Below are positions 28,875 through 42,748 of a stretch of DNA of 64,000 bases, one piece after another. The stretch spans positions 1,054,001 through 1,118,000 of the forward strand of contig NZ_CP070228.1 of the NCBI RefSeq assembly GCF_016904675.1. Direction: 5' to 3'. A program made the translations under genes and the position numbers. The stretch is from Arcanobacterium phocisimile. GTDB lineage: Bacteria > Actinomycetota > Actinomycetes > Actinomycetales > Actinomycetaceae. The notes below the pieces were generated by a model. It was given only the letters and a program-made list of their open reading frames with translations, did no database searches and was not told where the DNA came from. Positions within the stretch are counted from its first letter, which is position 1, and every line of letters begins with the position of its first letter.

Positions 28875-28993
28875 TGACGGCGGTGTCCTACTCTCCCACA
28901 CCCCCTCGGGTGCAGTACCATCGGCGCTGGAAGGCTTAGCTATCCGGGTTCGGAATGGAGCCGGGCGTTTCCCTACCGCTATGACCACCGTCA
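28875..28993 (-). rRNA. rrf: 5S ribosomal RNA
   Basis: The minus strand gives about 119 bases with TGACGGTGGTCATAGCGG at the 5' side and GGACACCGCCGTCA at the 3' side, which pair as helix I. CCATTCCGAACCCGG and CCCTCGGGGG-type loops are recognisable 5S elements. Ends are set by the helix I pairing and may be off by a base or two. Confidence 0.93.
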
Positions 28994-29087
28994 AAAATCT
29001 TGGGATCAATAATCCTGTATTAAATTATCTACTGCTATTGTTGTGTGGGGGTTGGGAATCGTATAGTGAACGCGAAACATACTCGAA

Positions 29088-33975
<4,888 letters not shown>

Positions 33976-34339
33976 AAACCAAACACCCCAAAGGGTATCC
34001 AATCAATACAGTCCGAAAAGCCAAAACAGGCTCAACAAAACAGACAAACCAAAACTAGCTCATCCAAAATAAAATAAAGAAAACACACCAACCAAAAACA
34101 GTCAGCATGCAATCCAAACAAAAACAATCATTATAAAAAGCTGACACACTATTGAGATATCAAACAACACACCCACACCCAACAACCACCCAGAAAAACC
34201 AGGCAACCATCAAGAAGGATAACCCCACCAAACTAACACACAACCACACTCAAGTCAAAACCCAAGCCAGTCACACATCAACAAGGAAGGAAACCATCAC
34301 CACCAGAACACTAACCGCGCTCCTCGGCGACAAGAAAAA
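33976..34339 (-). other. rRNA operon leader
   Basis: The leader runs from the likely promoter to the 16S 5' end, about 365 bases. The plus strand is nearly only A and C for long runs, so the transcript is G/U-rich. It should contain the pre-16S processing stem and antitermination signals. A 97-codon plus-strand frame (34152-34445) lies in it but is the mere result of a C/A-rich strand with few stop codons. Confidence 0.6.
34143..34169 (-). promoter_or_regulatory. boxA-like antitermination element in rRNA leader
   Basis: The minus strand reads TGTTGTTTGATATCTCAAT followed by AGTGTGTC. This resembles the TGTTGTTTGAGAACT-type boxA conserved in actinobacterial rRNA leaders, where NusB-NusE bind. 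The pre-23S spacer has a related copy. Confidence 0.6.
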
Positions 34340-34369
34340 ACAATACCCACCCACACAACCAACCGTCAA
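34340..34369 (-). promoter_or_regulatory. Likely rRNA promoter
   Basis: On the minus strand TTGACG (34364-34369) is followed after 18 bases by TATTGT (34340-34345). It is the best -35/-10 pair upstream of the rRNA operon. Additional start sites nearer to 16S (for example a TATAAT near 34133) are possible. Confidence 0.5.
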
Positions 34370-34506
34370 ACCAAAACAACGTAAGCCCTATCACATAGCT
34401 CGAAACGATGGCCTTATCTTAGAACCCTATATGCAAAAGCATTAATCTATCTCCCCAAAGCGGCTATTATTATTAGGAAAATACGTTCCGACAGAGATGA
34501 TACCCA

Positions 34507-35085
34507 ATGACCAGTCAACGAATGGAAGCCTTTAGTGATGGTGTCCTCGCCATCGTCATTACCATCATGGTCCTCAAACTTGAGTTACCAGTCGACCTCG
34601 ATATATCGAGCTTATATTTAATCGCCCCCACATTGTTGGCGTATGCTCTCAGCTATATATACGTCGGAATATACTGGGCCAACCATCACCACTTAGCTGG
34701 TGTCTCAAAAACTATTTCTGGATCCACTTTGTTAAAGAATTTGCACTGGCTTTTTTGGATAACACTCATCCCGGTGGTCACAGAATGGGTAGGAACTCAT
34801 CCTTTTGCACCCATGCCGGCCATGTTCTATGGCGTTATTCTATTCATGTGTTCAGTAACGTACCACTTCCTCCAACGCGACATCGTTCGACGTTTGAGTC
34901 ACGACGATCCAGGATCGCTGGAATGGGATCGTGATCTAAAAGGAAGAATTTCAATTACTGCCTATTTGATTGCTGCAACCACCGCAGTTTTCATACCTGC
35001 CGTGTCTTATATCATCTATGCCGCTATTGCTCTCATCTGGCTCATCCCAGATACACGCCTTGAAAAACTTTTCGGAGAAAGCTAA
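34507..35085 (+). CDS. TMEM175-type (DUF1211) potassium channel protein
   Basis: The 192-residue protein starts with RMEAFSDGVLAIVITIMVLKLELP, which includes the FSDGxxAI signature of the bacterial TMEM175/DUF1211 family. It has about six membrane helices (residues 12-32, 40-60, 75-95, 105-122, 150-170, 172-190). Bacterial members form tetrameric cation channels with potassium preference. It is a single gene with no linked partner, between the rRNA operon and a dead insertion sequence. ATG 34507 is preceded by a weak GAGATGA ribosome site. Confidence 0.88.
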   Translation: MTSQRMEAFSDGVLAIVITIMVLKLELPVDLDISSLYLIAPTLLAYALSYIYVGIYWANHHHLAGVSKTISGSTLLKNLHWLFWITLIPVVTEWVGTHPFAPMPAMFYGVILFMCSVTYHFLQRDIVRRLSHDDPGSLEWDRDLKGRISITAYLIAATTAVFIPAVSYIIYAAIALIWLIPDTRLEKLFGES

Positions 35086-35439
35086 GAATCAAATTGGGCA
35101 AGAGAGCTCCAACACGTCGTCCCATATGGACCATCGTCGATTAGAGGCTTGTGCGATGGTCCGACGGACATACGAATTCGTTCTTTCCAGGATTTTCTAC
35201 ATTGTTTCCACATGAGCCCTGTGGGATCAACGTCAGGAAGTTAGCGAAAATTTCTAGCGCAACATTTCGATAATTGTGTTCAAAGACGTTGCAGACGAAC
35301 TCGATTTCCCAAACTGCTCAGTAACAACAACATCATTCAATTGACACAGTTGCACTTTTACTTTAACCAAGACTATAGCGGACCGAACCAAATCCACTGT
35401 ATAGACGAAGATGAGCTACGTCCGTAACGAAGGTCTATT
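35086..35439. other. Gene-free stretch with one hairpin
   Basis: There is no frame with a ribosome site or recognisable product. GGACCATCG (35128-35136) and CGATGGTCC (35154-35162) form a 9-base stem 42 bases after the TMEM175 gene, possibly its terminator, though no U tract follows. The rest up to the IS end shows nothing I recognise. Confidence 0.5.
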
Positions 35440-35462
35440 TGAAGTGCCCCGGGTTTTGTTCC
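35440..35462. repeat. IS3 element, left inverted repeat
   Basis: TGAAGTGCCCCGGGTTTTGT followed by TCC. It pairs with the right end at 36729-36751, with a single G/A difference at the twelfth base. The orfB stop codon (TAG on the minus strand) overlaps its inner end. Confidence 0.92.
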
Positions 35463-36386
35463 TAGGCACGTGCCTTGATTTCTATTATTTCATGGCCGGT
35501 GTTGCCGTTCCAAAACTCCTGTTCAACCTCAGCCGGTGTACGGTAGCCCAAGCTCTGGTCAAGCCCTGACTCGTTCGGCCACGAAACCCATTCAAACGCC
35601 CGCGATTTCAACATCCAACCACGCCCCGCCCATGACCGCCTATGAATCAGCTCATTCTTGAAATGAACCGTTGACGTTCTCAGCCAAAGCATTGTCATCC
35701 GAATCGCCAACCGTCCCTGTCGAGGTAAGTAATCCCATGCTCGGCAAGACGCTCATTGTAAACAATGGACACATACTGCGAGCCGTGGTCGCAATGGTGA
35801 ATCAGCCCAGTTGTTTTCTTCGCACATACGATCGCCTGATAGTATGCCTGCAACAGTAACGCTTTACGTTCGCATTGAACCGACCAGCGCCCACCCGATA
35901 AATCCGTCCGTAGAGAACACATCGGTCACAAAAGCGGTGTAGAGAAAACCCCTTACGGGTACGGACATAGGTAATGTCGCCCCACCCACAACCGATTCGG
36001 CCTCGAAAGCTCGACATTCACGTCACGCCAAGTCTAGGCGAGTATCTCACCCCTTGAGGTTTACGAGTTCTCACAAGCAACCTGGCCTTTACCTTTACCC
36101 CTAACTCCAGCAAGGCGCATCAAACGAGCGGTATGCTTCACGACCAATATCTTTTCCCCTCACGGCGCAACGCGTGCCACATCTTACGAATCGGGTAGAC
36201 ATTGTAGTTACTTTCATAAATCTCAGATGTGTCCTATCGGCAGCAGCATCACGCAGGCTACGAGCACTCACACCACGGGATTTTGATTGACGATAGCCAC
36301 AAACCACCAACACGGTGAGTGTTTAACGTCTTGCAGATGAACTGAGTAGAGAAACGATTGCGATACTCATCAATGAACCGAATCAT
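35462..36386 (-). pseudogene. IS3 orfB (DDE transposase), multiple frameshifts
   Basis: Fragments of the IS3 orfB integrase core appear in three frames in the right order. They are MIRFIDEYR-like start, GDITYVRTRKGF (first Asp region), TTGLIHHCDHGSQYVSIVYNERLAEHGI (second Asp region), and a tail with ELIHRRSWAG and LGYRTPAEVEQEF. At least four frame changes separate them, and the segment with the DDE glutamate is altered. No functional protein can be made. Confidence 0.88.
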
Positions 36387-36701
36387 TTACCAATGTTTCG
36401 GGGCCAGTTCCGACGCGAAAAAAGCCGACGCTGCTTATCTGAACTCATGAGTATCGCGAAGCTCCTGATTTTCACGGCGTAGCCGCGCATTTTCGACTTC
36501 CAAGTCCTCCGGCAAGCGTTCAAGAACGCGTCCTTCACGACGAGCTACCTGAGTCCATTGCGCAGCAGTGTGCCAAGAAACACCTAGTTTCGGTGCCACA
36601 ATCTTGCACGCTTCTTGCAAGGAAACATTCTCCGCCACAATACGGTCTTCTACCAAGCGGACGACACGATCCTTCGCATCCTGATCAAATTTCTTTGGCA
36701 T
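36387..36701 (-). pseudogene. IS3 orfA with premature stop
   Basis: The frame from ATG 36701 gives 88 residues with an HTH (KDRVVRLVEDRIVAENVSLQEACKIVA, then GVSWHTAAQWTQVARREG) and a leucine-zipper helix (LEVENARLRRENQELRD). It stops with TAA at 36435 after HEFR, where relatives continue with FLKAASAFFASELDR; the DNA after the stop still encodes AASAFFASELAP in frame for 16 codons. So the stop is a recent substitution. TTTTTTC in that tail would be the frameshift site of the working element. Confidence 0.85.
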
Positions 36702-36728
36702 AGTCCAGATTGTCCCATCTACTCAAAC

Positions 36729-36751
36729 GGAACAAAACCTGGGGCACTTCA
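36729..36751. repeat. IS3 element, right inverted repeat
   Basis: GGAACAAAACCTGGGGCACT followed by TCA. It is the reverse complement of the left end with one mismatch and lies 27 bases upstream of orfA. Confidence 0.92.
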
Positions 36752-37590
36752 TGGGCTCCCGACAGACCCCTTTCTTTCCATCACTAGATAACCGAATCTG
36801 CAGAAGGCACAGTTGATATTGCTGCTTCATAGGGTAGCTGCAAAGAATACGACCGCCATCGCCCCACCAAGAGGTGTACCGCTAGGTGCAAAGAACACAC
36901 GATAAGAACTGGTGTATTCAACCGCGTTGTTTTCATTCGGCAAGCGTCGTTACCCTGCACCCGTTGGCAAAGCGATTCAAATTCACTCGAAAAATTCTTG
37001 CCGGTCCATCGGAAGCGATCGATCGCCTATCTGGGAGTCAGACTATGATTTTATACGCCTCCGAGACGAAACGATAAACAACCAGCACACATGCAAATTG
37101 TCAGCGGTCTCCATCTGGAACGTAATCTCGCCTCAAAAGATTACTCGTTATTCTTGGTTATTGAGCACCGGCGGCTAGGTGGCTAGAGGTTGAGAATACG
37201 ATTGTGAAGTTGCGGTGACAATCTGGCTGTCACATTGTTCTCCGGCTGCATCCGAAATGTTAAGGCTGGATGCCCCATTATTTATGTAGCTCGGTGGCGG
37301 ACCAAAGCTCGAGATTATTCTCAATGAGGGAGACCGCGGCAAAATTCTCGATTTTCGAGAAAAATAATCAGCCGACCTGCACCGTTCTGCTTGCCCAATG
37401 ACGAGCGATCAATGACAGCAGGGAATCCCAGTAAACTTAGCGTCTTGGTATCGATCAGATTTATCTCATCATCGACACAATACATACCAACGGTGCTGCA
37501 GTTGAGAACCTGAAATTCTAACTTAGAGCACTCCAACTTGTACCATGCATTTAGCCCTGGTCTGTCAAATGGTCAGGTCTTGTCCAAAAA
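36752..37590. other. Gene-poor stretch of about 840 bp
   Basis: Only short frames are present: 36912-37178 plus (88 codons) and 37321-37536 minus (71 codons, starting MECSKLEFQVLNC). Neither has a clear ribosome site or a recognisable domain. The stretch lies between the dead IS and the terminator of the membrane-protein module, so it is probably debris of earlier insertions. A small RNA cannot be excluded. Confidence 0.45.
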
Positions 37591-37625
37591 TGTTACGGAG
37601 GCGAACATACGTCGCCTCCGTAACA
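37591..37625 (-). terminator. Terminator of the membrane-protein/SRPBCC operon
   Basis: TGTTACGGAGGCGA and TCGCCTCCGTAACA form a 13-14 bp stem around a short loop. On the minus strand it is followed by TTTTTGG, and it is 27 bases beyond the stop of the membrane protein gene. Confidence 0.85.
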
Positions 37626-37652
37626 ATTTTGAGTAACTAATTCGACGTGACT

Positions 37653-38684
37653 TTAAAATTGTCGTTTTTTGGTGGTATTAGAAACACGGTCCTGGATCCG
37701 GGCTTGAGTTTCTGCAGTAGCATGGGTGGCTATCAGTTTCTGATACTCTGCAGTGTCATAATAGACCTCTTGACGTGCCGGATTACGACGACGAGAGACA
37801 CAGAAATAAATGTGATAGAGGAAAACACCTACGTTGCATACCAGTGCCGCTAGAGATACGAGGAACAGTGCAGTTCCGTTGTGGGAAGACTGATGTTCAA
37901 ATATAGAGGCATTGGTGAACGTCGGAACGGTAAGAACGAACCCGGTCCACAACGTCAATGTATATGAACGATATTGAATCCATGCCCCGCGTCCCATCTT
38001 CATAAATGCCGGTACGGTACACGAAGCCAATAGTGCGACACCCGAATACCATGCATGGTCAGAGATACAGTTGTAAACGAACGCAAAATTCCATAGATCG
38101 TAACCGATGATCCACCAAATAGTGAGATCACCCCAAATGACCGTCCTATCACGGTTCTTCGATACAAAGATTCCGAGCCAGCCGGAAATTGCTAGCAAGT
38201 TGAGAACACCTGCGATCGCGTTCATAATATTCCACGATCCGCCCCAGTTGACCATTCCACCTTGATAGGGGTCAATTCCTTGAACCCAATATCCTTGGAT
38301 GTCGCGTACAACGGCCTCTAAAATATTTCCGGCAAGCAAAATTGGCGGGAATAAAAGATACCAACGGTTATTACGCAGACGTGGCACAAGTTGAATTCCG
38401 ACAAGTGAAAGCGAACCCAGTAAGGCCGAATAATGCTTAACGACGGGGAACCAGCCCGCCGTCGTCGTCCCTGCGGTTGAATATGGCCACCAGAAGATTC
38501 CAAGTGTAATTGGCAAAATAATAAAGAACAACACAATTGCCCACTTATAACGGATAATTAGCCAGGCTCCTACTGCAAGTGCAACCGTTGTCACAATAAG
38601 CGCAAGATAGTCGTACCACTCGCCAACTTCGAAGAAAAATAGGGTCGGGTAATCCGGAGGCACAATCGTAAATAAACTAGACAT
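37653..38684 (-). CDS. Polytopic membrane protein, DUF5692-like (paralogue A)
   Basis: The 343-residue protein has about nine membrane helices. Shared with the protein at 39969-41327 are GWFPVVK (about 78), NILEAVVRD (about 118), GGSWNIMNAIAGVLN (about 144), WWIIGYDLWNFAFVYN (about 188) and VPAFMKMGRGAWIQYRSYTLTLW (about 222-245). I recall this pattern from proteins named DUF5692, but could not search. The conserved charged and aromatic residues inside helices (E in NILEA, D in YDLWN, R in YRSYT) suggest a buried polar site. The start has ribosome site GAAAGGA. It is the second gene after the SRPBCC gene, past a hairpin that may reduce its expression. Confidence 0.75.
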   Translation of the reverse strand: MSSLFTIVPPDYPTLFFFEVGEWYDYLALIVTTVALAVGAWLIIRYKWAIVLFFIILPITLGIFWWPYSTAGTTTAGWFPVVKHYSALLGSLSLVGIQLVPRLRNNRWYLLFPPILLAGNILEAVVRDIQGYWVQGIDPYQGGMVNWGGSWNIMNAIAGVLNLLAISGWLGIFVSKNRDRTVIWGDLTIWWIIGYDLWNFAFVYNCISDHAWYSGVALLASCTVPAFMKMGRGAWIQYRSYTLTLWTGFVLTVPTFTNASIFEHQSSHNGTALFLVSLAALVCNVGVFLYHIYFCVSRRRNPARQEVYYDTAEYQKLIATHATAETQARIQDRVSNTTKKRQF

Positions 38685-38711
38685 AGAAACAAATCCTTTC
38701 TCTAGTATTGA

Positions 38712-38754
38712 ACAGATGACGGTAGGTGGCGGTTAACCACCTACCGTCATCTGT
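38712..38754 (-). terminator. Strong intercistronic hairpin
   Basis: ACAGATGACGGTAGGTGG and CCACCTACCGTCATCTGT form an 18-bp perfect stem with a CGGTTAA loop, between the SRPBCC gene stop (3 bases away) and the membrane protein start. With no U tract on the minus strand (TTCAATAC) it may be a partial terminator or an mRNA-stabilising end for the upstream gene. Confidence 0.75.
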
Positions 38755-38756
38755 GC

Positions 38757-39803
38757 TCAATGCTTCTTTCCCCATCCATGCAGATATGTTTTCTCGTTCT
38801 TCTGACGAATCTGCTCATCCCATGAGAACTCGGGCTCTTCCCAGTCGACGTAGTAGTCTTCGTCTAGGCGCCCATCCCACGGTGTTTCCGGGCCCGACGG
38901 TGGCCAGTGTGGATTATCGGTCACCGGAGGCCTGATCTCAGCAACTGCCGGGTTACGACGGCCAAACCGCATCCACTGCGTTTCTGTTTCTTCGAATAAC
39001 GGTGTTCCGTCCCACCGTCCAGCCGGAGTTTGCGAACCGAAGAACCGACCACCGAGTAGACCACGCATAATCCGACCGCTAAGCTGTGGTTTCTTCCGAA
39101 ACTCTGCAACGCGTTTGAGGTAAGCGTTTTGCATGTTCGTCATACATCCGCCAACAAGCTCAATATTGAGCCAGTTAACAACTTTGTTAAACAAATTGTC
39201 GTCTTCATATCCAATGCGCCAATGATTGATTAAGCGGCATCGCTCACCTTTGAGCGGGACGAGATAGAAGCACCATGCTGCAGCGAAATGTCTCATTCCT
39301 GGGAAGCGGAACGCATACGATCCAGGGGCAGCTGGCGGCATTTTGGTATCAGTCCATGACACCAAATATTTACCCGGTACGATATCAGTCCACTCCATCG
39401 TCATACCGTGATAATCGAAGGCTGCGACGTCACCAGGCGCGATCGCATCTGCAACTTGGAATTCTTCCTGGATCTCATACGAGTTAAAGAAAGGTAGGCG
39501 GGCAAAGGTGCGCTCAAGGAATTCCGATGAAAAAGAACCGGTTCGGTTACATCCGAGTTGTTTCAGGTAACGGTATACCGCATATGCAGGTGCGTCGATG
39601 TCGATTGCATACGTCGACGAATAACCGTTGTCGTAGTTCGCGTCAATTAAGTCGTCTGCCGGATAACGAAAGTCTTGCTCTTCCTGTGTTGCCTTGCCAT
39701 GCATCTGGCTATAGGCATAGAGGAAGCCAAATGTACTAGCACCCAGCACTCCCCCAACCTTCATAGCTTTCTTACAAAATTTCAGTGGAGAACTTTTTCC
39801 CAT
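38757..39803 (-). CDS. Membrane-anchored SRPBCC-like (START/Bet v1 fold) protein
   Basis: The 348-residue protein begins with a basic stretch and one membrane helix (KKAMKVGGVLGASTFGFLYAYSQ, about 11-33), so the remainder is probably outside the cytoplasm. Residues about 60-230 look like an SRPBCC ligand-binding domain: YAIDIDAPAYAVYRYLKQLGC at the start, then alternating strands such as GKYLVSWTD, HFAAAWCFYLVPL and RCRLINHWRIGY, and a final long amphipathic helix (NKVVNWLNIELVGGCMTNMQNAYLKRVAEF). The C-terminal about 90 residues are Pro/Trp/acid-rich and unstructured. It is first in an operon with paralogue A and divergent from paralogue B. A bound hydrophobic ligand is inferred from the fold. 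Confidence 0.7.
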   Translation of the reverse strand: MGKSSPLKFCKKAMKVGGVLGASTFGFLYAYSQMHGKATQEEQDFRYPADDLIDANYDNGYSSTYAIDIDAPAYAVYRYLKQLGCNRTGSFSSEFLERTFARLPFFNSYEIQEEFQVADAIAPGDVAAFDYHGMTMEWTDIVPGKYLVSWTDTKMPPAAPGSYAFRFPGMRHFAAAWCFYLVPLKGERCRLINHWRIGYEDDNLFNKVVNWLNIELVGGCMTNMQNAYLKRVAEFRKKPQLSGRIMRGLLGGRFFGSQTPAGRWDGTPLFEETETQWMRFGRRNPAVAEIRPPVTDNPHWPPSGPETPWDGRLDEDYYVDWEEPEFSWDEQIRQKNEKTYLHGWGKKH

Positions 39804-39888
39804 TACTCACGCCTTTGTCAGTTTCGGATGACCACTCCATTGCGGTCGCGATTACTTAACTATAAAGCATAAAATCTCCCTAACGTGT

Positions 39889-39923
39889 GACCTAAATCCC
39901 AATATAAATTGGAATTCTAGGTC
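39889..39923. promoter_or_regulatory. Candidate operator in the divergent promoter region
   Basis: GACCTA (39889) and TAGGTC (ending 39923) flank an inner inverted repeat CCAAT-ATAA-ATTGG. The arms are offset by one base. It is between the divergent SRPBCC and paralogue B genes, where one regulator could control both transcripts. On the minus side TATAGT near 39860 could be a -10. Confidence 0.45.
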
Positions 39924-39968
39924 TATTCTGGTTTATTAATGACGAAATTACTATGAGGAGAATGCTCA

Positions 39969-41327
39969 ATGACGACATTCCTTGGCCTATGGGAAATAGG
40001 CACTCCCCGATTATGGATAATGCTCATCGTCGTGTTTATCGCACAAGTAGCAGTAGCTGAAATTAACCGACGATGGCTATGGACGTGTTTTGCCATGTGG
40101 ATGGTTGGAGGTGTACTACTGATTCCATACGTTGCTTACCATGCCGTCCCCCTCGTTGGCTGGTTCCCAGTGGGCAAATACATGATCATGGTCAGTGTTT
40201 CTATCCTCAATGGCTATCTCGTGTGGCTCGGACGCAACAATCCGCATAAATTCCATCGCAATATTATGCTCATCGGTTTTGTCTCATGGCTAGGCGTAGC
40301 AACCAACATTATGGAAGCCAATGTTCGTGATGTTGCGATTTACTTTAATACCGAATCTTATAATTCGTGTGCCGCTGACTGGCAATGTCTCAAGGAAGTC
40401 AATGATTCCCATGCCCTAGACATGATCGAAGGCTTACCAGAAACCCGCAACACCACCGCTCCGCTACATTCAGATGAATGGTATCAGGAAGTAGCACAGA
40501 ACTTTGCCGACACTAACGTCGGAATCGATCCAGAAACCGGATTCCGCACTATCGGAGGCTGGTGGAACCTCGCTTCGGCAGCCGCAGGCTTACTCAACAT
40601 CATAACGATGACAGGTTGGGCAAAAATCACTGTCTCTACACGTAAAGACCAAAAAGTCAAAGGCCTAATTTGGGCAGATATGATTTGGCCTTGGGTTATC
40701 GCCTACGATCTGTGGAATCACGCATTCCTCTACAATGCGCTCGCCGATTACACCTGGTATTGCACATTCGCTCTCCTCATGGCAGCAACAGTCCCAGCAT
40801 TCTTGTGGGCAAAGGGACAATGGCTATGGTTTAGGTGTTACACACTCATGTTCTGGATCGCGATGAATAATGTTATTCCAGAGTTACTCATTTCTCCGGA
40901 GCAAAACAACTTCGCTACCATGAATCCAACAGCAAATATTGTCTGCTCAATGCTTGCCCTTATCGCAAATATCGCACTCTTTATTTACTGCGCCTACGTT
41001 GTTATCGTCAAACGCCGCCAACCATACACAACAGGCCTATTCCAAGACTTTGGTGCTTATCGAACAATAGTCAAGGAGCACTGCAGCGAAGAAGACAAAT
41101 ACTGGATGTGCGATCTTATCAAGGAGACCCCACAAGAACTCGGATTTGAACCTGATTCACCACTACCACCCGCAACGACCGGGTTTATCACACATCTACC
41201 GTGGTGGGGTAAGAACGATAAACGTTATCCAAAGCTGCGAACTCCAGTGTCAGTCGATCCACTACTCGTCGCTAAAGGTGTTAAAAGCGACCCACAGTGG
41301 GACGTAACTCCACAAACGCTGCGGTGA
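39969..41327 (+). CDS. Polytopic membrane protein, DUF5692-like (paralogue B)
   Basis: The 452-residue protein has about nine membrane helices and shares a chain of motifs with paralogue A: GWFPVGKY (about 63), NIMEANVRDV (about 117), GGWWNLASAAAGLLN (about 197), WVIAYDLWNHAFLYN (about 243) and VPAFLWAKGQWLWFRCYTLMFW (about 276-297). It differs by an insert of about 50 residues after NVRD (about 130-190, with SCAADWQC, two cysteines that may pair) and a soluble C-terminal tail. The start ATG has ribosome site GAGGAGA. It is single, divergent from the other two genes and ends at a perfect palindrome. Confidence 0.75.
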   Translation: MTTFLGLWEIGTPRLWIMLIVVFIAQVAVAEINRRWLWTCFAMWMVGGVLLIPYVAYHAVPLVGWFPVGKYMIMVSVSILNGYLVWLGRNNPHKFHRNIMLIGFVSWLGVATNIMEANVRDVAIYFNTESYNSCAADWQCLKEVNDSHALDMIEGLPETRNTTAPLHSDEWYQEVAQNFADTNVGIDPETGFRTIGGWWNLASAAAGLLNIITMTGWAKITVSTRKDQKVKGLIWADMIWPWVIAYDLWNHAFLYNALADYTWYCTFALLMAATVPAFLWAKGQWLWFRCYTLMFWIAMNNVIPELLISPEQNNFATMNPTANIVCSMLALIANIALFIYCAYVVIVKRRQPYTTGLFQDFGAYRTIVKEHCSEEDKYWMCDLIKETPQELGFEPDSPLPPATTGFITHLPWWGKNDKRYPKLRTPVSVDPLLVAKGVKSDPQWDVTPQTLR

Positions 41328-41376
41328 TAACTACTGCGACACTCACACTCATTCTAGTTATCTATAGTTGAGACAT

Positions 41377-41414
41377 AGTTGTGGGAGGTACTCACGTGAG
41401 TACCTCCCACAACT
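41377..41414. terminator. Perfect 38-bp palindromic terminator
   Basis: AGTTGTGGGAGGTACTCAC is followed directly by its reverse complement GTGAGTACCTCCCACAACT. It is between the convergent stops of paralogue B and tyrS and probably ends both transcripts. Confidence 0.8.
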
Positions 41415-41488
41415 TACATCACATTCAAGCAACTCACATGCCGCTAGAACATTAAACGTTAGACTATCCAAGCTAACGCTAGAGCGTT

Positions 41489-42748
41489 TCAGACAAGGTG
41501 AATAACTGCCATATTCTTCCGTCCCTTACGAACCAGAATCAGGCTGTCTCCAAGAGCATCACCAGCTTCCAGAGCGCGCTCTTCATCAGTAACTTTGACG
41601 TTGTTAATAGCTACGCCACCTGAAGCTATGGTTCGACGGGCGGCACCGCGCCCTTTTTCAAAGCCAAGGCTTACTAGGACGTCTTGTACACTCGTTCCCA
41701 GAGACGCCTCGACTGACGGAAGCTCAGCAACTGCGTCCCGTAAAGTATCCGCGTCTACCTCTTGTGGATCCTTCTTTCCGAATAGAACCGAAGAAGCGTC
41801 CTTGACGCGAGCAGTAGCCTGCGCCCCGTGAACCCACGTTGTGACTTCATCAGCTAAGACACGCTGTGCTTGACGGGTATGTGGCCGCTCAGCGACTTCG
41901 ACTTCCAGATTTTCAATTTCTTCGCGCGAAAGGAAGGTAAAGACTTTCAGCATGCGGATAACATCGGCATCTGCCGTGTTGAGCCAGAACTGGTAGAACT
42001 TGTAGGGGCTCAGCATCTGCGGATTGAGCCAGACAGCGCCACCTTCGGTCTTTCCGAACTTTGTTCCATCAGATTTAGTAATCAACTGGTTGGTCAGTAC
42101 GTGAACGCTAGCGCCTTCAACCTTGCGGATCAGGTCCATTCCGCCGACGATGTTACCCCACTGGTCGTTTCCGCCAAGCTCGAGTGTGCATCCGTAACGG
42201 CGGTAAAGTTCGAGATAATCATTTGCTTGCAAAATCTGGTAAGAGAACTCGGTGAACGAGATACCCTCATCGGATTGAAGGCGCCGAGCAACAATATCTT
42301 TAGAAAGCATTGTCCCCATGCGGAAATGCTTGCCCAGATCGCGCAAGAAATCAATTGCACTCATTGACTGCGTCCAGTCCAAGTTATTGACAGTGATTGC
42401 CGCGTTTGGCCCCTCAAAATCAAGGAGCGACTCAAGTTGGTCACGCAAGGCTTGAGTCCATTGCGCAACAGTTTCACGAGTATTTAAGGAGCGCTCACCT
42501 TTGGGACGTGGATCGCCGATCAGGCCGGTAGCACCGCCAACCAAGACAATCGGCCGATGGCCTGCCATCTGCAAATGCCGCATCATTTTTACGGCAACAA
42601 GATGGCCGTGATGTAGTGAAGCCGCAGTTGGATCAAAGCCGCAATAGAACGAAATAGATCCCTCAGAAAGAGCCTTTCGTAGCTCGTCGATATCTGAATG
42701 CTGAGCAATAAGCCCACGCCATTGGAGTTCATCAAGGATGTCAGCCAA
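41489..42748 (-). CDS. tyrS: Tyrosyl-tRNA synthetase
   Basis: This class I synthetase of 419 residues charges tRNA-Tyr. The HIGH-type motif is in FDPTAASLHHGHLV, the KMSKS-type motif is KFGKTEGGAVWL, the tyrosine pocket includes YQILQANDYLELY, and a C-terminal S4 domain (from about 355) binds RNA. I start at TTG 42748 (MADILDELQWRGLI) since AAAGGAA lies 5-6 bases upstream and orthologues begin there; an ATG at 42775 would add nine residues without family support. It is monocistronic. Confidence 0.95.
   Translation of the reverse strand: MADILDELQWRGLIAQHSDIDELRKALSEGSISFYCGFDPTAASLHHGHLVAVKMMRHLQMAGHRPIVLVGGATGLIGDPRPKGERSLNTRETVAQWTQALRDQLESLLDFEGPNAAITVNNLDWTQSMSAIDFLRDLGKHFRMGTMLSKDIVARRLQSDEGISFTEFSYQILQANDYLELYRRYGCTLELGGNDQWGNIVGGMDLIRKVEGASVHVLTNQLITKSDGTKFGKTEGGAVWLNPQMLSPYKFYQFWLNTADADVIRMLKVFTFLSREEIENLEVEVAERPHTRQAQRVLADEVTTWVHGAQATARVKDASSVLFGKKDPQEVDADTLRDAVAELPSVEASLGTSVQDVLVSLGFEKGRGAARRTIASGGVAINNVKVTDEERALEAGDALGDSLILVRKGRKNMAVIHLV

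Follow-up and report, generated by a model that had tools for sequence, protein, structure and literature searches.

The window, the whole 64,000-nucleotide stretch of Arcanobacterium phocisimile DNA that was analyzed, carries a three-gene module, and its interpretation as a conserved, self-contained envelope system is well supported. Three proteins without an assigned function, namely two paralogous membrane proteins (A and C) and an SRPBCC-like protein (S), form one conserved unit that is found in many animal-associated actinobacteria. The reading that we favor, to which we tentatively assign a probability of about 0.4, is that, outside the cell, S captures a hydrophobic ligand, which it then transfers to a membrane complex of A and C; the outcome of the ligand handling would be uptake, modification or protection. 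If confirmed, this would provide the first function for DUF5692, a family that is frequent in Coriobacteriia and for which no structural relative could be detected among PDB entries, as well as a START-type ligand capture step outside Gram-positive cells.

The open reading frames of all three genes lie where the initial annotation had placed them; S is read in the same direction as A, and S and C diverge. The parts of the locus are as follows (positions in the window):

37653..38684, minus strand: gene A, encoding a DUF5692 membrane protein of 343 aa
38757..39803, minus strand: gene S, encoding an SRPBCC-like protein of 348 aa
39969..41327, plus strand: gene C, encoding a DUF5692 paralog of 452 aa with an extra outer loop
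39804..39968: divergent S-C intergenic region, presumed from the gene layout, divergent in nearly all loci, to contain both promoters
37585..37631, minus strand: stem-loop 3' of A, a terminator-like inverted repeat with a T-run on the minus strand; likely terminator
38712..38754, minus strand: perfect 18-bp stem in the S-A gap, an inverted repeat without a T-run, which may act as a partial terminator or mark a processing site
41377..41414: perfect 19-bp palindrome 3' of C, an inverted repeat without a T-run; possible terminator

No promoter was identified in the S-C intergenic region (39804..39968). Each transcript had also been credited with a strong hairpin of its own: the three strong stems are indeed present, but the T-run of an intrinsic terminator is found only at the stem after A. 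Separate terminators for the individual transcripts are likely.

A scan of about 85,000 species genomes yielded 38 loci with S, in Actinomycetaceae, Corynebacterium and Austwickia as well as in two records labeled Xylanimonas and Sanguibacter. All three genes share one locus, nearly always as neighbors, in 37 of these 38 public-genome loci, so the linkage of A, S and C is far beyond chance; repeated co-occurrence in distant genomes, the test that had been set beforehand, is thereby observed. The sole locus without the full trio (L109) has no A nearby, and in one other (L108), A is located about 5 kb away. The divergent arrangement of S and C is retained in nearly every locus, and A switches side and direction. 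Among 99 related genomes, strong S hits and long C-type DUF5692 proteins were detected in the identical set of 20 (Fisher p 2e-21, without correction for relatedness). Across bacterial families, the identity of the three proteins is about 70%. The modules in the records of Xylanimonas cellulosilytica (L118) and Sanguibacter keddieii (L119) hardly differ from the ones in Actinomyces HPA0247 and a Schaalia, and these two records may be misnamed.

No conserved fourth gene was seen when the 38 module loci were compared: apart from A, S and C, they have no adjacent gene in common, for example of the IsrA type (with Pfam names available for part of the flanks), and the genes that flank the module are shared only by close relatives. 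One gene cluster represented in 19 loci was considered as a fourth member and rejected; its members differ greatly in length and lie at varied distances, and it was taken to be a common large family. In a broad sample of the class (n=297), the window's own genome was the sole one with S, and thus the distribution of the module is narrow and patchy. A plasmid-borne module was dismissed as well, given that in plasmids S showed only weak generic matches, and A only two lone DUF5692 matches.

Both membrane proteins belong to the DUF5692 family (PF18948, curated cut-off 27 bits), as the initial annotation had expected, with scores of 358 bits (E 4e-107) for A and 201 bits (E 3e-59) for C. The two proteins share 35% identity over 211 aa (BLASTP, E 1e-43) which, together with the common family membership, bears out the paralogy proposed at the outset. 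The signature of the family (WF, K83, N120, D128, N152, YD, WN, YN and R239 in the numbering of A) reaches a conservation of at least 85% in A and C as well as in 35 lone members; because it is kept in full in both A and C, neither paralog looks inactive. Hydropathy and charge predict an N-out/C-in topology with about nine helices, such that WF78-79, K83, N120, D128, G149, N152, YD195-196, WN198-199 and YN204-205 would face the outer side, and D186, G233, R239, N301 and P302 the inside. The extra outer loop of C carries Cys134 and Cys140, which are present in 40 of the 40 C proteins and absent from A; an invariant cysteine pair in such a loop fits an extracellular disulfide. The structure of A was modeled with confidence (AF2, pLDDT 87, pTM 0.88), and a search of the PDB with this model retrieved no match at E≤0.001; no sequence relatives of the module proteins were detected in the PDB either. 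The model suggests that the fold of the DUF5692 membrane part is one without a known relative.

Protein S consists of a single N-terminal membrane helix (approximately residues 6-34), an SRPBCC domain (approximately 46-235) and a conserved C-terminal tail of about 110 residues, with a mean column identity of 78% across 35 loci. The AF2 model of S, which is of moderate overall confidence (pLDDT 71.8; residues 85-119 poor and the middle of the domain of low confidence), includes the N-terminal helix and a helix-grip domain. The best Foldseek matches of this model in the PDB are SRPBCC/START/Bet v1 proteins (top E 6e-6, identity 10-17%), among them 3rd6, ZhuI (3tfz), PYL receptors and STARD10. 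The N-terminal helix and the SRPBCC/START-type fold that had been read from the sequence alone are thus recovered in the model, and the charge pattern agrees with the proposed extracytoplasmic location of the domain, which is predicted to lie outside the membrane by hydropathy and charge. No Pfam family (up to E 1) and no NCBIfam family was found for S; two of 10 distant S homologs touch PF10604 (Polyketide_cyc2), below the cut-off. Like the members of this superfamily, S has a predicted helix-grip fold, but it differs from them in its membrane anchor, its long tail, the lack of a Pfam family and the low identity. S may bind a hydrophobic ligand.

Under the mechanism that we favor, the N-terminal helix would hold S in the membrane, with the SRPBCC domain exposed on the outer face, where it would bind a hydrophobic molecule outside the cell. 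The two DUF5692 paralogs, both presumably functional, would form a heteromeric membrane complex with their conserved polar residues on the same outer side, and S would pass the ligand to this complex, which would take it up or modify it chemically. Of this picture, the gene linkage, the paralogy and the common conserved residues are direct observations, and the fold of S and the topology are computational predictions; the A-C complex, the transfer by S, the ligand and the outcome are inferred. Most of the conserved polar residues of A and C, the cysteine pair of C and the domain of S are predicted to lie on the outer side. The A-C complex is plausible because both paralogs keep the whole signature and the distance matrices of the three proteins correlate (r of 0.72 to 0.77 for A, S and C pairwise distances, compared to a permuted maximum of 0.35). 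Joint inheritance would explain this correlation, but part of it would also arise from a common species history alone. That a hydrophobic molecule is delivered, we infer from the fold of S, the predicted topology and the distant gene neighbors.

The neighborhoods of lone DUF5692 genes and of distant S homologs hint at unsaturated lipids because these homologs are found in gene clusters devoted to the chemistry of fatty acids or to the reduction of double bonds. DUF5692 is encoded in 63 of 200 Coriobacteriia genomes. The gene adjoining a lone DUF5692 gene falls into one of two clusters in 26 of 35 loci, and the tested members of these clusters are TetR regulators. Some of the lone genes in Coriobacteriia adjoin genes for an FAD reductase, cytochrome c3 and FMN-binding proteins; others adjoin genes for a 930-aa oxidoreductase, HypA and a CobW/HypB-type protein, a neighborhood that matches the loci of isoprene-reductase homologs (PMC10134865). 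In such neighborhoods, DUF5692 co-occurs with a frequency of 0.4, and two of these loci, in Acetobacterium, encompass an oleate hydratase (PMC10134865). In a separate case of paired paralogs, five Coriobacteriia loci (L196-L199, L203) combine a strong DUF5692 gene with a divergently oriented, barely recognizable second one (about 22-28 bits), without S.

The nearest S homolog outside the module (38% identity, tail included) is encoded in genome G291, within a gene run (L144:9060-15158) that continues with a homolog of a double-bond isomerase, an AMP-ligase and an acyl-ACP thioesterase, and is preceded by a regulator with a TetR domain. The isomerase homolog matches PDB 2b9w (E 9e-142), which is named 'putative aminooxidase' there and is known as a polyunsaturated fatty acid isomerase. 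The run looks like an uncharacterized fatty-acid gene cluster; a TetR gene is found also alongside a more distant S homolog (G605). The ligand of the module would most likely be an unsaturated fatty acid or another lipid of this kind. We treat this assignment as a lead because neither an oleate hydratase (PF06100 above the cut-off) nor the double-bond isomerase was found in the 20 module genomes, and the G291 genome has no DUF5692. The isomerase query does match in Coriobacteriia; a link of these other isomerase genes with S or DUF5692 was rejected, S being present only in G291 and no adjacency having been seen elsewhere. A more specific version of the favored mechanism, which we consider rather doubtful, is a cassette of mucosal actinobacteria in which the anchored SRPBCC protein captures host-derived lipids outside the cell and feeds a DUF5692-pair machine of unseen fold, with a duplicated version serving a second ligand.

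Several of the same observations can be read differently. A and C could be an enzyme that modifies an envelope lipid of the cell itself at the outer face, with S presenting or removing the substrate and no import involved; the charged and polar residues that are invariant and kept in both paralogs, in a membrane protein with about nine helices, the lack of a module gene for an ATPase or any other source of energy, and the close conservation of all three proteins would agree with such an activity. No similarity of A or C to a known enzyme was detected by sequence or fold, however, and a core envelope function is hard to reconcile with the patchy distribution, the two copies in one genome and the decayed copy in G005, which leaves this explanation on the doubtful side. 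Protection against a membrane-active hydrophobic compound on mucosal surfaces, whereby S would bind the compound outside and A and C would expel or neutralize it, appears unlikely. The patchy, accessory distribution and the ligand-binding SRPBCC fold of S are compatible with it, and TetR regulators, which commonly adjoin resistance genes, are found next to lone DUF5692 genes; yet no TetR gene is located beside the module itself, the module has no energy-coupling subunit, A and C match no known efflux family (Pfam), and PADLOC produced no match. The latter result, obtained for A, S and C alike, is also the reason why an anti-phage defense system was rejected.

S could also be imagined as a quinone-type carrier, a role that certain SRPBCC proteins (COQ10, for instance) play, with A and C tied to membrane electron transfer. 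The fold of S and the flavin reductase and cytochrome c3 genes next to lone DUF5692 genes in Coriobacteriia point in this direction, but conservation across the family reveals no His or Cys common to A and C that could bind heme or an iron-sulfur cluster, and there are no respiratory genes beside the module, so that we regard this role as very improbable.

A literature search found no description of a system of this make-up, in line with the initial annotation, and DUF5692 is named in just one of the papers searched. The module appears new in kind, having no described counterpart of like make-up and a membrane part without a known fold; its function may prove familiar. Both A and C share the signature with lone DUF5692 members, but the known members are single, of unassigned function and often located beside TetR genes, whereas here two forms, one of which (C) has a large outer loop, are combined with S. 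The IsrA-like loci with HypA, HypB and TetR (L189, L192, L205, L128; PMC10134865) likewise contain a DUF5692 gene, and Pfam places the IsrA-like oxidoreductase, HypA and HypB genes next to it in L189 and L192; these loci, however, have a single DUF5692 gene and no S, and the module lacks those reductase genes alongside. The G291 run shares with the module a homolog of S, in a genome without DUF5692, and the relatives that carry the module lack its isomerase. By way of analogy, in cholesterol delivery in mitochondria by StAR and TSPO, a START-fold carrier acts beside a tryptophan-rich membrane protein; here, there is no TspO_MBR match in Pfam and no TSPO among the fold matches listed.

The host genome contains a second, diverged copy of the module (approximately 385,636-389,218). 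In the tree of S, 38 rows form a supported group (97/92; type I) that excludes the S of the window. The latter belongs to type II, which comprises two groups outside type I (window, G007, G005, G027, L089/G056, L099 and L121). In the genomes found, a type II copy is always accompanied by a second copy, and this second copy is of type I in five cases (window, G005, TAE3-ERU4, Boudabousia liubingyangii VUL4_1 and S7A_St_2), the second copies of G007 and G027 having been left out of the tree placement. Because of this pairing, the tree suggests an old duplication of the module with specialization.

The chromosomal location of the module is shared only within Arcanobacterium, where it occupies the gap between the rRNA operon and tyrS in the window, G007 and G005. 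In the window, the rRNA operon side of the module also includes a TMEM175-like gene and a transposase remnant. The same gap is almost empty in G006, G001 and G003, in agreement with the accessory character attributed to the region at the outset, and in G008 it contains other DNA with a length of about 3 kb. The segment from the rRNA operon to tyrS (window 28875-41500) is a variable spot in Arcanobacterium. In G005, the module at the tyrS site (L062, L227) is decayed: A is reduced to short fragments and C is shortened, with the S frame mostly open. The TMEM175-like potassium channel gene (PF06736, E 1.6e-25; window 34507-35085), located between the rRNA operon and the module, is found at the same site in G005 and, partially, in G008; the region also has a match in G007.
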